A stretch of DNA of 64,000 nucleotides, taken from Tetrahymena thermophila SB210 (lineage: Eukaryota; Ciliophora; Oligohymenophorea; Hymenostomatida; Tetrahymenidae). Position numbers and translations under genes: made by a program. The stretch covers positions 248,001-312,000 of the forward strand of contig NW_002476431.1 of assembly GCF_000189635.1 (NCBI RefSeq), written 5' to 3'. How positions within the stretch are numbered: the first letter of the stretch is position 1; every line of letters begins with the position of its first letter. Positions 56,609 through 63,380 of the stretch are shown piece by piece. The notes under the pieces are model-generated. The model was given only the letters and a program-made list of their open reading frames with translations, searched no databases and was not told where the DNA came from.

Positions 56609-57331
56609 AAAGAATATCTAATATTAGATCAAACAAACCTAATAATATATAAATTTATTTTTAAAATTGTACATATTTATATAATAAAGAAATCATTTAC
56701 ATTTTATCAAGTAAAACAAATTTTTCTTCAGTATAAATTAAAAAATATCAATTTAAATGTTTAATCCGTCATGCCTATTTAAATTTTATAAATAACTTAT
56801 AAATTATTTCATTAAATGCAATCAATAAAATTTTAATTTTAATACTTTAATATTAAATAAATTTAAAAATGGTTTAAAGCTATTAATTAATTAAAATTAC
56901 AGATAATTAGATATGGAAATAAAATAATAAAGTTATATACCCTAAATATTTGTTTATTCGAATTTTTTATTAGTTAAGATAGTAAGGTATCTCTTATTTT
57001 TTAAATAATAGTGAAAAAAAATTTTTAATATTTAGAAACATGTCTACAAAATATTTATAATAGTAGATATAATATCTAAATGTTAATAACAACTTAATGA
57101 TTAGTAATTTAATAAAAGAATAGCTTAACTTTGAAAACTTTAAGGGATTATGACATCCTTTTTAATATTTAATTGTCAAATTTAGAGTCATTTAAGGTAA
57201 TCCTGAATACAATTTGTAATTATATTGTAAATTACTAATGCTTACCTTTATTTGACAAATAATACCATAAATTTATTAAAAGAAGATATTAATTAATTGA
57301 GTTTGAAAGAATTTCTTTGGAAAAATTAAAA
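56609..57331. other. AT-rich intergenic spacer
   Basis: About 720 bp between the DAG kinase gene and the glycosidase gene, both rightward. No coding or RNA feature seen. Confidence 0.55.
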
Positions 57332-58685
57332 ATGAAAGAAAAATACCTTTTTTTAATAATATCATTGAGTATAGTGTTATGCACTAGCACTGAGATGAAT
57401 TTAGGAAGCTCTGATTTTATTGAATAATCATTGTTCAACTCTGAAATGAGTTTATTTCCTACTTTTCCCATTAGAATGAAGGGAATTACGTTCACTGATG
57501 ACAAATACTGTCCTGAGGTTCCATATGACAGCAAAGAAGCTTTCTACTCTCTTAAGTAGCTTGCCTCAACTGGCGCTAATTATGTTTCGATTGTAGTAAC
57601 TTTTTATCAAAAATATCATAACTCCACAGTTATTTTTCCTTTATATACTCCTATAAAATCTGACTACTACACTTATGTTACTGCTACTGATGAAGCTCTC
57701 ACAAAAGTAATTAACTACGCTCATTAAATAGGTTTATAAGTGATGCTTAAACCTCATATTGACCTTATTGAAGATCCTGAATACTGGAGAGGAGATATAG
57801 GATTAAATTTTACATAAACATAATGGAATGAGTGGTTTGCTTCTTATACCGATTATATTTTGCATTTTGCTAAGATGTCAGAAAAATTATAAGTAGAAAT
57901 GTACTCACTGTCTTGTGAGCTCATTGAAGTAACTATTTATTTTTTATTTTTTATAAATGAATATTTTGTTTTAAAATAAAATACTTCACACTATGTTAGA
58001 AATAAAAAATTAAAAATATTAAATTTTAATATTCATTAGGTGTCAACCTAAACTTAACATTGGATTAAGCTAATTGGATAAGTTAGGGAAGTTTACACAG
58101 GTATTTTAACTGATAGTTCTAATTGGGGTTATCTTGATGGAAGAGGAGGAGAAGATACTCACAAGGATTGGTGGGGATATGTAGATGTTATAGGTATTGA
58201 CTCTTACTATCCTTTAGCTTAAGACATAGATTTCCCAACTGTAAATCAAGTAATAGATGCTTGGTAGCCTGTTATAGCTAGGTTTAAAAACTTAACAGAG
58301 TTCTTTAATAGACCTATTATGATAAGTGAAATAGGTTATTGCAGTGGCTAATGCAAAAGAGATTATATTCCTGTTAAGCAAGATTTTACCAAATAAGCTA
58401 TTTACTACTAAGCTGCATTTGAAGCATTTAGAAATGTTGATTTCCCTTTCTATGGTTACTTCTGGTGGAGTTGGAATACTGATCCTAGGTAATTAATTTT
58501 TAATTTTTAAAATGTTTAATAAAATTTCATTAATAATTTTAAATATTAAAAGAGATGGAGGCAGAAAGGATAATTGTATTACACCTTAGTTTAAAAAGGC
58601 AGAAGAAGTTTTAAGACATTACTATGGAGGAAGATTTAGACTACCTAAATTGCCTGGCAGTCCTGTTTGTGAATGTACAGTTTGA
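57332..58685 (+). CDS. Secreted TIM-barrel glycoside hydrolase, GH113-like
   Basis: Three exons (57332-57928, 58040-58488, 58553-58685) encode 392 residues. The N-terminus MKEKYLFLIISLSIVLCTST is a signal peptide. Barrel features: KGITF near the start, SLKQLASTGANYVSIVVTFYQ, ATDEALTKVINYAHQIGLQVMLKPHID, WRGDIG and WNEWFASYTDYIL. Then SLSCELIEV, with the likely acid/base Glu at the end of strand 4, DVIGIDSYYPL, and MISEIGYCSG, with the likely nucleophile Glu. GYFWWSWNTDP follows. Paired catalytic Glu residues mark clan GH-A, and the WRG/LKPH pattern resembles GH113 beta-mannanases. Substrate is not certain; a digestive or lysosomal role is inferred. Stop TGA 58683-58685. Confidence 0.78.
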
Positions 58686-59002
58686 AATTTATCAAAAAAA
58701 ATATGAAATAAATAATGAATTAATTGTTTGTTTTGTTTGGAAAAATGAAAAATGTAACAAAATAAAAAGGGTATTTATATATAAAAGATTTTTTATGAAA
58801 TTCCTTCCTATATTCAATTATTAAACACAAACACATTTTTGTTTACAGTTTGTTTTGAAAATATTAATGAATAATGATCACATAAGATAATTTTTACAAA
58901 GTTTTGTATTTTATCAAAATGAAACACAAAAATTAATTTACAAAGTTAAAGAAAATAAATGCTTTATAGCTTTAATTTGATTAAGTTATCATTTTCATTT
59001 TT

Positions 59003-59055
59003 TCTCAGCAAATTCCTTCTCTTTTAGAGTTTCAGGTAATAATTTGCATCATTTT
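59003..59055 (-). promoter_or_regulatory. SECIS-like element in the 3' UTR of SPS2
   Basis: On the minus strand, ATGA (59052-59049) is followed by the helix arm TGCAAATT, a short irregular stem ending in CCTG, then AA (59032-59031) and an apical segment. It closes with AATTTGC (59014-59008) and TGAG (59007-59004). GCAAATT and AATTTGC pair perfectly, and ATGA / TGA supply the tandem G.A core with the conserved AA in the apical loop. This fits a eukaryotic SECIS. It starts about 62 nt after the SPS2 stop codon, the place expected for selenocysteine insertion. Confidence 0.8.
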
Positions 59056-59114
59056 AGAAATGATACTTATCTAATTAAATAATTAAAGCAATATTTTGTA
59101 TATTTTCACTTAAA

Positions 59115-60427
59115 TCAAACATCCTCAATAGTAGCGCTTTCCAACACAGTTGAGTTATTAGATCCATTAACAACAACACCTGCATAATTGCACTCAAGTC
59201 CATTATCATGCATCTCCTAAATAAAGTCTTTAGCATTTTATTTAGGTAAACAAATGAGTAAACCACCACTTGTTTCAGCACTAAATCCTTACTTCAATCT
59301 ATAATCTTTTACAGTATTATCTATTCTTGCCATGTTTTTAATAATTGGTAGATTATCAATAACTAAATCAACCTTTTGCTTCTAGACACTTGCTAAAAAT
59401 TAAGAATGCCCTTTAATTCCAAAGCCTGTGACATCAGTGCAAGCATGAGCATTATATTTTTTCATTAAATGTGCTGCAAACATATTTAAAGTTCCCATTT
59501 CATATTCAGCCTTTTTGAAAGCTTGTTTGACTTATTCAGGTGAAAGTATTTTAGATATTTTTTCATACTTGTCTTTGTAGCTTGTCAACCACTACATGGC
59601 ATTAACGGCAAGCTATGTACCCAAAGGTTTTGTTAAAATTATTACATCACCAGCTACAGCGTCATTTGGCATAATGAATTCATTTCTTTCTACCGCTGCA
59701 ATACCAACTCCTCCTATTATTGGCCAAGGATTAAAGATAGTTTATCCTCCTAAAACAAAAGCTCCAGCATCATTTGCACATTCATCAAATCCTTAAATCA
59801 TCAAACTAGTAACAACCTTAATATTAAAAAATATTCAATATATTGAATCTTATAAAAATTCAATTTTGTATAAGATATTAATAAATTTGTTGGCTCTTTT
59901 TATTTAATTTTAGAATATAAATAATTTACTTCTCTCTCTGTCTCATTCATACGGTTAGAAACAGCTAAGACCATAAGTACTACATCTATATCTGTTACAG
60001 CCATGCTATAAAGATCAGATAAAACGTTGCAAGCCGAAATACGACCTTGCAAGTAGGGATCATGGACATTTGGATAAAAGAAATCTATGGTTGAAATGAT
60101 CTTTTTGCTTTTAGTATTGCGAATAGGTCTAACACTAACATCAGGAGTTTCGGAAATAATATCTCCTTTGCCAATCTTTTCCAGGTATTTAAGTAGCTTG
60201 GCTTGTGGCACTTTACATCCTCACCCTTTTAAATCACTGAAATTTGTTAAAACAAAATCTTAAGATAATCCATGTTCAACAGGATTCCATTCCTTTCTAG
60301 GTTATGGCCTTCCATTAGGTATCTTAGTGGCTGAACTGAAGTTTTAAACAAATTTTTAAGTGAAAGAAAGAGTTTTGGATAGAATTTATTGGTTGCTTAT
60401 CAAAGATGGAATAGCCTTGCTAAGCAT
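59115..60427 (-). CDS. SPS2: Selenophosphate synthetase with in-frame TGA for selenocysteine
   Basis: Makes selenophosphate, the Se donor for Sec-tRNA, from selenide and ATP. Exons 60427-59930 and 59816-59115 (intron 113 bp) give 399 residues counting Sec. The sequence FSDLKG-TGA-GCKVPQAKLLKYL puts TGA at the Sec/Cys catalytic position (residue 69), followed by Gly-Cys and the Lys of the active site. Downstream are DFFYPNVHDPYLQGRISACNVLSDLYSMAV, GGQTIFNPWPIIGG, CTDVTGFGIKGH and SAETSGGLL, all family landmarks. The reading stays open for 330 residues past the TGA, and a SECIS-like stem-loop lies downstream, so it is a selenoprotein, not a pseudogene. Residues 1-40 (MLSKAIPSLISNQQILSKT...) lack acidic residues and could be a mitochondrial-type leader. 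Stop TGA 59117-59115. Confidence 0.95.
60221..60223 (-). other. Selenocysteine codon (TGA) of SPS2
   Basis: In-frame TGA between LKG and GCK at the active site. Homologues carry Sec or Cys here. An annotation treating TGA as stop would wrongly begin the protein at the next ATG or leave only MPQAKLLKYL onward. Confidence 0.93.
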
Positions 60428-61317
60428 TTCTATTTATAAACTAAAACTCTACCTATCAACAGAAGCTTATATCTTGCTTCTTTTTCTAAACTTATTAAAC
60501 TAAAGATTTTTGCTTTTTAATTTTGCGAAAAATAAATTATGATTTTTTTAGAACAATTTGATAATTAATTGGTGGCTTGACTTTCAAAGAGTGTAAAAAA
60601 ATATATGTTTATTACTTAATTATCTATAAATAAATACCAAAGATTCTAATTAAAAAGTTGATTTTATTATTGTACATTAATTACAACTATTTCATAAAAT
60701 TAAAAATATCTAAGTATTTTATTTTTAAATGTCTAAAATTTTTTAAGAACTAAATAAAGAATTTAATTAACATATTAAGTTGTTTTAATGTTTTTAAATC
60801 CATTTCTTATTAAATAAGTTAATTAATATTCTTTAAATATTAAAAGATAATATTAACAGAAGGTTTTTTTTTAATTTAAACAATTTCTTAAAATATAATT
60901 TAAAAATAGGTTATTTAAAAATTAGAAAATTGATTGATGTTGTTTTAAAATATTATTCACTACTATTTTATAACTTCATCCTAAAAATTTTGTTTATAAA
61001 ATTAATCATTCAATTCTATTTATTATGAACTAAAATAATATTTTTAATATAATAAAAACACTATGATACATATTATAAATTTTAAATTATGTACTTTGTT
61101 ATTGAGATTAATTAATATATGTAGATTTAATTGTTAAAATTTAAATTTTAACATATTTTTTTTGATTCATTTTCACAAATTTTTTCAAATTTATAATTAT
61201 GCAAATCAAATTACTGATATATTCTTTTTTTAGTTATTAAATTTTCTATGATTTAAGTTGATGATTTTATAATTATCTTAATTTGAGATAATAATACACA
61301 ATTGATTTGATTTACAT
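60428..61317. other. Divergent AT-rich spacer
   Basis: About 890 bp between SPS2 (leftward) and the gene at 61318 (rightward). It has long A/T runs and no ORF with coding character. It should contain both promoters. Confidence 0.55.
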
Positions 61318-63380
61318 ATGAGCTCAAAAAGGCCGTTTTCGTAATAAAAATAGACTCAAAACATTTTAAATTAAGCTAAAAAAGATGAGGATGATTAGAA
61401 ATTACCGAAAATTAAACAATCTTCATAAAATATTACTAGATTACCTTCAAATTAATAAAATAAAAATGTTAATTATACATAAAAGATAGCTAATTAGGAT
61501 AATCAATATTTAAATAGACCGCTATCTAGATAAAGTACTTCAATAAAAGATAAAGGAGCACCAGTAAATCAAGAAGATTTAAGTAGTAAAATAAACTCCT
61601 TGAATAGAGTTGAAATACAAGAAGAAAAGAAAGAAAGTTAAAATAAAAACACAGCTAACAAGCCTACAACTAAAAACTTTCTGTAAATTAATAAAAGCAA
61701 CGCTATCTCAAAAAAAATAAATAACTAAACTCCTTTAACAAAAGCATAAAGGGTAGATATCAGTTAATAAAGTAATAGAATTAATTAATAGCAACCATTA
61801 GATGATTTAGAAAGTAATTTTTTAAACAAACCTTTAGCAGTAAAGCCTAGAGAATTTAAGTTTCATACAAATACAAGAATAGAACATAGAAAAGAGATGA
61901 ATATGCTTAAAGCTAAATAAAATATAATATTAGATCGTGTTAACTATCATATATAAAGAATTATTTTATGTTTTGCTGCTTCGAGTTATTAAGAAGTTTA
62001 TAAATTAATGAAGGTATGCAAAAAATTTTACTAAGTAATTACCTCTCATTATAGGATATGGGAATGTGTTTTAACTACCTTGACTAAAACTTAATAAGTA
62101 AAATATTTATTTTTTAATAAAATTCTATTTGATATTATGCTTTTTCATTAAAATTATTATTAATGTTTATCATAAATTAAATTTTAAAAATAAGTTTTTT
62201 TTTTAAAAAGATAGAATTTTTAAAGAGGTTTCCTAATTTTGAGGATATGCAAGAAAATCAAAAAATTAAAATAATCAGAGAATATGTTGAAATAGAAGAG
62301 AAAAAAAATGTTATAAAATTATATGAAAAATACTTTACCGATTATAGAAAATTATTCGAGTATTGCTCAACGAAAGAAAATTTACCTAATAAGTTATTGT
62401 AAAGATTGAAGCTCAAGGTAAATGCAACAATAAATAAATTGAAAATTCCAGAAAAAAAATACTTACTGAGATGTGAAAACTTTTCATCTCATTTAATGAT
62501 CAAGTTTGATGAGATATAAAAAATAAATCTTCAATACCTAGACGAAATCAATTTTGAAATAAGTTTTTTCAGTTTCCATTTAAAAACATCTGTAAAAATA
62601 GCAAGAAAATTTAAAGTGAGAGATATTTTTGAAAGAAGTGTCTGCTAGAAGGCCTTTTGCTATTATGAAGAAAGAAATTTTTTAACATGCTTTTTTGAAG
62701 GAGACTCAATATTTTTATATACTTTATTTGAAATATCTGCAATGGAACTTGTTACTCGCTTTAGATTTGAACTTGAAAAAAGACTGATATATGAAGAGAA
62801 ATAAAAACTTGGAGTAAAGACTCCAAAATTATAGATGAAATTTTTATAGCGTGACATGAGTGATTATCAATATGAGAGCTTTTCTTAATACTTTAAATAT
62901 TAATCTGATTTTGAAGTCATGATAAATGTACACAACTCTCTCAAAAAAAATTTATATACTTTTATTGATACTAGGAGTTTTCCAAAAACATAAACAGAAT
63001 CCTAAGCTTAATTTATTTTTTCCCCAGGTGACAGATTTTTTATTGAAAATGTCTTTTCTCTTGATAACAAATCTGGTATGAAAGAAACTGTTAAGGATAT
63101 CCTACTTTTAGATCTTATCTTAAAAGACAGAGATAGATTTTTAATTTGTTATTCTGGATATGTTAGGATTCAAGATATAAATGATCTCTCATAAAAAAAT
63201 AATATCGATATGAATTTCGATTATAGTACAGCAGACGAGTACTAGGCTAAAAAAATTTACTTTAACTAACCTAATTAATATAGTTTTGAACTTTTAATTA
63301 TTCAAACAAAAAGAGAAGCAATATTGAAAAGTATAAATATAACAATAAACCAATAAATTATCTCAGGAAATCTACCCTGA
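61318..63380 (+). CDS. Unrecognised 649-residue protein with disordered N-terminus
   Basis: Two exons (61318-62097 and 62211-63380) join in phase. Residues 1 to about 190 are Lys/Gln/Asn/Ser-rich and disordered (MSSKRPFSQQKQTQN...). From PREFKFHTNTRIEHRKEMNM onward the protein looks folded. One part is helical, with RFPNFEDMQENQK and EYVEIEEKKNVIKLYEKYF. A middle part has SAMELVTRFRFELEKRL, and the C-terminal part is probably beta-rich: FSPGDRFFIENVFSLDN, LLLDLILKDRDRFLICYSGY and SFELLIIQTKREAI. No motif I can assign. A cytoskeletal or ciliary role is possible but only a guess. Stop TGA 63378-63380. Confidence 0.75.

Follow-up and report, generated by a model that had tools for sequence, protein, structure and literature searches.

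The minus strand of the window, the stretch of 64,000 nucleotides of Tetrahymena thermophila SB210 DNA analyzed here, carries a gene that, with a probability of roughly 0.93, encodes the SPS2 selenoprotein (selenophosphate synthetase), in which UGA is used both as the selenocysteine (Sec) codon, at codon 69, and as the stop codon. A preliminary description of the locus had already called it an SPS2 selenoprotein gene, and this assignment agrees with the family matches of the protein, the SECIS element downstream of the coding region, the genes for tRNA-Sec, SepSecS and eEFSec found in the genome, and an earlier publication in which the gene figures as encoding a putative selenoprotein.

The gene is real and has already been published. 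In Table 2 of Coyne et al. 2008 (PMC2612030), TTHERM_00522580 appears under the name selenophosphate synthetase 2 among six putative selenoproteins, with 12 ESTs. The SECIS printed there equals ours over 86 aligned bases, which identifies the two as the same gene, and differs in being two A's longer in one run of A's; the other five SECIS of that table are present letter for letter in the genome. The dual use of UGA has been published as well: PMC7409322 and PMC7600574 give UGA as the only stop codon and the Sec codon of T. thermophila, PMC3341644 describes all 64 codons as translatable in this species, and Shrimali et al. 2005 is cited by both PMC7600574 and Coyne et al. (PMC2612030) for the dual UGA or for the tRNA. 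SPS2 genes are scattered across Alveolata, according to Mariotti et al. 2015 (PMC4561486).

Structure of the SPS2 gene and the position of its in-frame TGA

Translated with TAA and TAG as Gln, the gene consists of two exons on the minus strand (60427-59930 and 59816-59115), which are spliced into a frame of 399 residues starting with the ATG at 60427. The features of the locus are the following:

59930-60427, minus strand: SPS2 exon 1, which holds the Sec TGA, identified by family match; GC 34.9%
59817-59929, minus strand: SPS2 intron of 113 nt with GT-AG ends, needed for in-frame joining of the exons; GC 12.4%
59115-59816, minus strand: SPS2 exon 2, stop codon included; GC 33.0%
60221-60223, minus strand: in-frame TGA, codon 69, at the Sec/Cys position (LKG-TGA-GCK)
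59115-59117, minus strand: SPS2 stop TGA, with 65 nt from its first base to the downstream SECIS ATGA
59106-59108, minus strand: second in-frame TGA, the third codon past the stop (TGA TTT AAG TGA)
59005-59052, minus strand: core of the SECIS, ATGA to TGA, comprising a helix II with a 4-nt ATTA bulge, an unpaired AAA and a small apical stem
58983-59068, minus strand: the published SECIS of TTHERM_00522580, 88 nt in print and 86 nt here

Within the spliced frame, TAA occurs 11 times, TAG 4 times and TGA twice, once internally and once at the end, in line with the published code of the species and with the proposal that TAA and TAG are read as Gln, leaving UGA as the sole stop as well as the Sec codon. 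The preliminary description had the frame running on to a genuine TGA stop. Such a stop is present at 59117-59115, and similarity to the family extends throughout, but the 113-nt intron had been overlooked, and the frame breaks unless it is removed. The exon junction is supported by a T. malaccensis protein (P0001) that continues uninterrupted across it. As for the neighbors, the open frame convergent with SPS2 (57101-58672, plus strand) matches glycoside hydrolase family 113 with 163.2 bits; upstream of SPS2, the plus strand at 61306-63380 holds two open frames, 61306-62409 and 62133-63380, neither of which has a Pfam match at E-values up to 0.01.

The spliced protein matched two solved structures, 3fd5 ('Selenide, water dikinase 1'; E 4.8e-91, residues 42-395 of 399), which we take to be human SPS1, and 5l16 ('Putative selenophosphate synthetase'; E 2e-82, residues 45-367), presumably the Leishmania protein. 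It scored 212.4 bits against the selD profile TIGR00476 (cut-off 125). In a profile search of the genome (101 Mb, 445 contigs), the exons taken singly scored 111.6 and 71.2 bits, both below the cut-off, and these two exons were the only places matched by TIGR00476, so that this search yielded no second SPS gene.

Alignment with the solved chains places the TGA at 60221-60223 exactly where the preliminary description had put it, at the Sec/Cys position of selenophosphate synthetase, within the context DLKG-TGA-GCKVPQ. The Sec/Cys and the GxK motif, here LKG-TGA-GCK, contribute catalytic residues in this family. The TGA aligns with Cys in 5l16 (LKGCSCK) and with Thr in 3fd5 (LKGTGCK); the latter shares the LKG-x-GCKVPQ motif with the Tetrahymena protein but has Thr in place of the UGA-encoded residue, and SPS1 is not known to be a selenoprotein. 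For a broader comparison, the best 120 of 3430 homologues were considered, and 10 of them, picked by hand, were aligned with the query. In the resulting 11 rows, the TGA column holds Cys in 7, Trp in the metagenomic relative P0002, gaps in P0001 and in Chinchilla SPS2 (P0111), and the UGA of the query, printed as C by the tool. The in-frame UGA thus sits at the Cys position of the homologues, with homology on both sides, and the LKG-x-GCKVPQ motif occurs in some form in 8 of the 10 other proteins. The three Paramecium proteins aligned (P0003, P0004 and P0005) belong to the same family and are 49-51% identical over the alignment, but all three carry Cys at the Sec position, where T. thermophila has UGA.

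The closest relative calls for closer consideration. The T. malaccensis protein ABPG74_021536 (P0001) is the best of the 120 listed homologues (identity 90% by the search, 96% by the alignment), but its deposited model differs from ours in lacking a net 24 residues around the Sec codon. It reads LTNF-R-DIISE and so omits exactly the piece encoded at 60237-60166, which has GT and AG ends, is 72 nt long and divisible by three, and could accordingly be taken for an intron whose removal would eliminate the Sec codon altogether. We consider this reading very improbable and rejected 60166-60237 (minus strand) as an intron: with 40.3% GC, the segment is coding-like and unlike the SPS2 intron with its 12.4% (the exons have 33-35%), and it encodes the very LKG-x-GCKVPQ motif that recurs in 8 of the 10 aligned relatives. 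Nor does such splicing accord with the presence of a SECIS in the 3' UTR of the gene. Gene finders, in avoiding a stop, usually drop a piece around the Sec codon, and the Chinchilla SPS2 row is gapped at the same place; the gap in P0001 is therefore most likely a gene-finding artefact.

UGA being the stop codon of this genome, one might also suppose that translation terminates after 68 residues and that the remainder of the gene is the remnant of a decaying SPS2. This would be even less probable, given that past the TGA the frame remains open across both exons up to residue 399 and resembles the family over its whole length, that the T. malaccensis protein is 96% identical by alignment count, and that 12 ESTs are listed for the gene (PMC2612030).

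The SECIS element and the Sec-decoding machinery

The stem-loop that the preliminary description had recognized as SECIS-like at 59003-59055 was found within that range, its ATGA starting at 59052 and its 3' TGA ending at 59005. The 3' UTR of SPS2 thus carries an element of the eukaryotic type, AUGA ... AA ... UGA with a closed helix, which starts 65 nt downstream of the stop codon's first base and has no Rfam match. In a scan of both strands of the window, devised after the element was known and with a range for the AA broad enough to include it, 24 candidates were returned, of which the SPS2 element was the most stable (-6.8 kcal/mol; runner-up, -0.9 kcal/mol). The six published T. thermophila SECIS, SPS2 included, ranged from -3.2 to -14.3 kcal/mol in the same scan. 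When the 215-nt 3' region was shuffled 5000 times with its dinucleotides preserved, 249 shuffles contained any candidate, 9 reached -3.2 kcal/mol and none reached -6.8 kcal/mol. Helix II of this element contains four additional bases, the ATTA bulge, which are absent from the other five published elements; counted within the enclosed stretch, its first unpaired AA is found at position 16, compared with position 12 or 13 in those five.

A covariance-model search, proposed in the preliminary description, did not bear out the element. At gathering scores, Rfam gave no SECIS match anywhere in the window, and at E-values up to 10 the region 58700-59200 produced five sub-threshold matches, none of them to a SECIS; one of these permissive matches, to SNORD34 (58998-59063, E 0.25), overlies the SECIS region. 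The Rfam model RF00031 found nothing in the whole genome, but it also matched none of 14 control genomes, so its miss in T. thermophila says little. We also built a covariance model from the SECIS of TR2, TR3 and SPS2 and ran it over 21 sources. The three training elements came out on top, and one of the three held-out elements, that of GPx2, was recovered with 18.0 bits (E 0.5); those of GPx1 and TR1 were not recovered at E-values up to 5.

The genome has genes for three components of the Sec-decoding machinery, tRNA-Sec, SepSecS and eEFSec. A search for tRNA-Sec gave 13 matches, one of which exceeded the cut-off (68.6 bits against 47) and, as read from the alignment, has UCA in the anticodon loop. 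This gene was missed by ARAGORN. SepSecS was represented by a single match (E 1.7e-126). The eEFSec profile TIGR00475 gave 27 matches, none above the cut-off, and the eEFSec gene was picked by eye among them: it lies at C206 in two pieces (L060 and L061), one of which matched the eEFSec chains 7zjw and 5izk with an E-value of 9.7e-88, and the next 7zjw with 1.7e-31. For PSTK, the profile TIGR03575 had no match in the genome, and the same model matched just 1 of the 14 control genomes. There were six L7Ae-family matches, none of which could be assigned by eye to SBP2. PMC7409322 names TTHERM_00408870 as eEFSec and TTHERM_00395870 as an SBP2-like protein.

These components bear on another account of the in-frame codon, namely, that a standard residue such as Trp or Cys is inserted at the UGA by readthrough. 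Cys indeed occupies the position in 7 of the 11 aligned rows, and P0002 was deposited with Trp there, although, judging from the protein alone, this Trp may merely be a TGA translated as Trp. Readthrough of this kind is hard to reconcile with a 3' UTR SECIS in a genome with genes for tRNA-Sec, SepSecS and eEFSec, and we regard it as about as improbable as gene decay and slightly more so than an intron around the TGA.

With UGA decoded as Sec, an SBP2-like protein would bind the SPS2 SECIS and, together with eEFSec carrying Sec-tRNA, would direct the insertion of Sec at codon 69, whereas the UGA ahead of the 3' UTR would be read as a stop by the release factor. SPS makes selenophosphate, the selenium donor for Sec, from selenide and ATP, and the SPS2 enzyme would thereby itself be a selenoprotein. 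The suggestion of the preliminary description that decoding of the SPS2 UGA depends fully on the SECIS and on context is plausible.

Sec and stop UGAs in the six published selenoprotein genes

We compared how far each UGA lies from the SECIS ATGA, measured between their first bases, across the six published selenoprotein genes, GPx1, GPx2, TR1, TR2, TR3 and SPS2. For the stop UGAs, these distances are 120, 66, 63, 96, 196 and 65 nt, respectively. The Sec UGAs of GPx1, GPx2 and SPS2 are 654, 515 and 1171 nt away in the genome, introns included (1058 nt for SPS2 without its intron). In TR1, TR2 and TR3, the Sec UGAs lie 69, 102 and 202 nt from the SECIS, 6 nt upstream of the stops.

The two GPx genes bear on a discrepancy in the later literature. 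Loci L019 and L022 (minus), outside the window, are GPx genes that each contain an in-frame TGA, in the context VACK-TGA-GLT, and each is followed by the SECIS that Coyne et al. published, 120 and 66 nt from the start of the stop, respectively. PMC7409322 and PMC7600574, however, describe TtGPx12, a Sec-GPx, as having no detectable SECIS, and PMC7409322 describes TtGPx10 as having a SECIS but no Sec. The locus-tag numbers suggest that TtGPx12 corresponds to TTHERM_00279820 of Coyne et al. and TtGPx10 to TTHERM_00141160, and the SECIS of TtGPx10 in PMC7409322, with an 11-bp helix II and a 13-base loop, agrees with the way the TTHERM_00141160 SECIS folds. Since both GPx genes have the TGA as well as Coyne's SECIS, at 66 nt in TTHERM_00279820 and at 120 nt in TTHERM_00141160, the anomaly most likely stems from gene models and SECIS detection.

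In the three Sec thioredoxin reductase (TrxR) genes (L033; L046, on the minus strand; and L030), all outside the window, the Sec and the stop UGA are one codon apart. Their ends read TGC TGA GCT TGA TTT, TGC TGA GCT TGA GCT GCA TGA, and TGC TGA GGT TGA TCG, so that in TR2 both UGAs, Sec and stop, are followed by GCU. Which UGA of each pair would be Sec and which stop we infer from homology. Among three other TrxR-like gene ends, CCG-stop closes L027 and L032, though not L042, and the ends of L027 and L032 support the first UGA, in the penultimate place, as Sec.

A rule by which a UGA far from the SECIS is read as Sec and a near one as stop was rejected on the strength of the TrxR genes. The Sec UGA of TR1, at 69 nt, lies about where GPx2 and SPS2 have their stop UGAs (66 and 65 nt). 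Moreover, because the paired UGAs are 6 nt apart and, in TR2, have GCU after both, neither the distance to the SECIS nor the next codon is sufficient alone. We tentatively suggest that the choice between Sec and stop within one mRNA could be set by the order of the UGAs or by the upstream context, although we rate this explanation as more doubtful than likely. Order could act through a refractory step following each Sec insertion; alternatively, the second UGA of TR2 is possibly a part-time Sec codon as well.

The base following the UGA is G after the Sec codon in all six genes and after the stop in one (TR2); the G after Sec may just reflect the next residue, Gly or Ala. In three of the six genes (GPx2, TR2 and SPS2), a further in-frame UGA occurs no more than 3 codons after the stop. 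For UAR-reassigned ciliates, Fleming and Cavalcanti (PMC6879139) report that on average 13.03% of genes have such a codon within a six-codon range. With only six genes, the sample is too small for wider claims.

Parts of this picture have precedents. Swart et al. 2016 (PMC4967479) describe, in two other ciliates, a TrxR Sec codon located shortly before the SECIS, against a 51-111 nt rule. According to PMC5133445, Sec is limited to its natural positions in ciliates and mammals, which makes position-specific Sec decoding an already established theme. The one-codon spacing in the T. thermophila TrxR genes, however, does not appear in the available portions of Coyne et al. 2008 (PMC2612030), nor in the titles and abstract openings of the literature searched, and the comparison of paired UGAs across the published T. 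thermophila genes may be an addition to the literature. The SPS2 gene itself confirms the printed record, and the value of the observations lies in the six-gene set: six genes in which a single codon serves as Sec and as sole terminator, with these uses spaced one codon apart in three of the genes, constitute a ready natural test of how the ribosome chooses between them.
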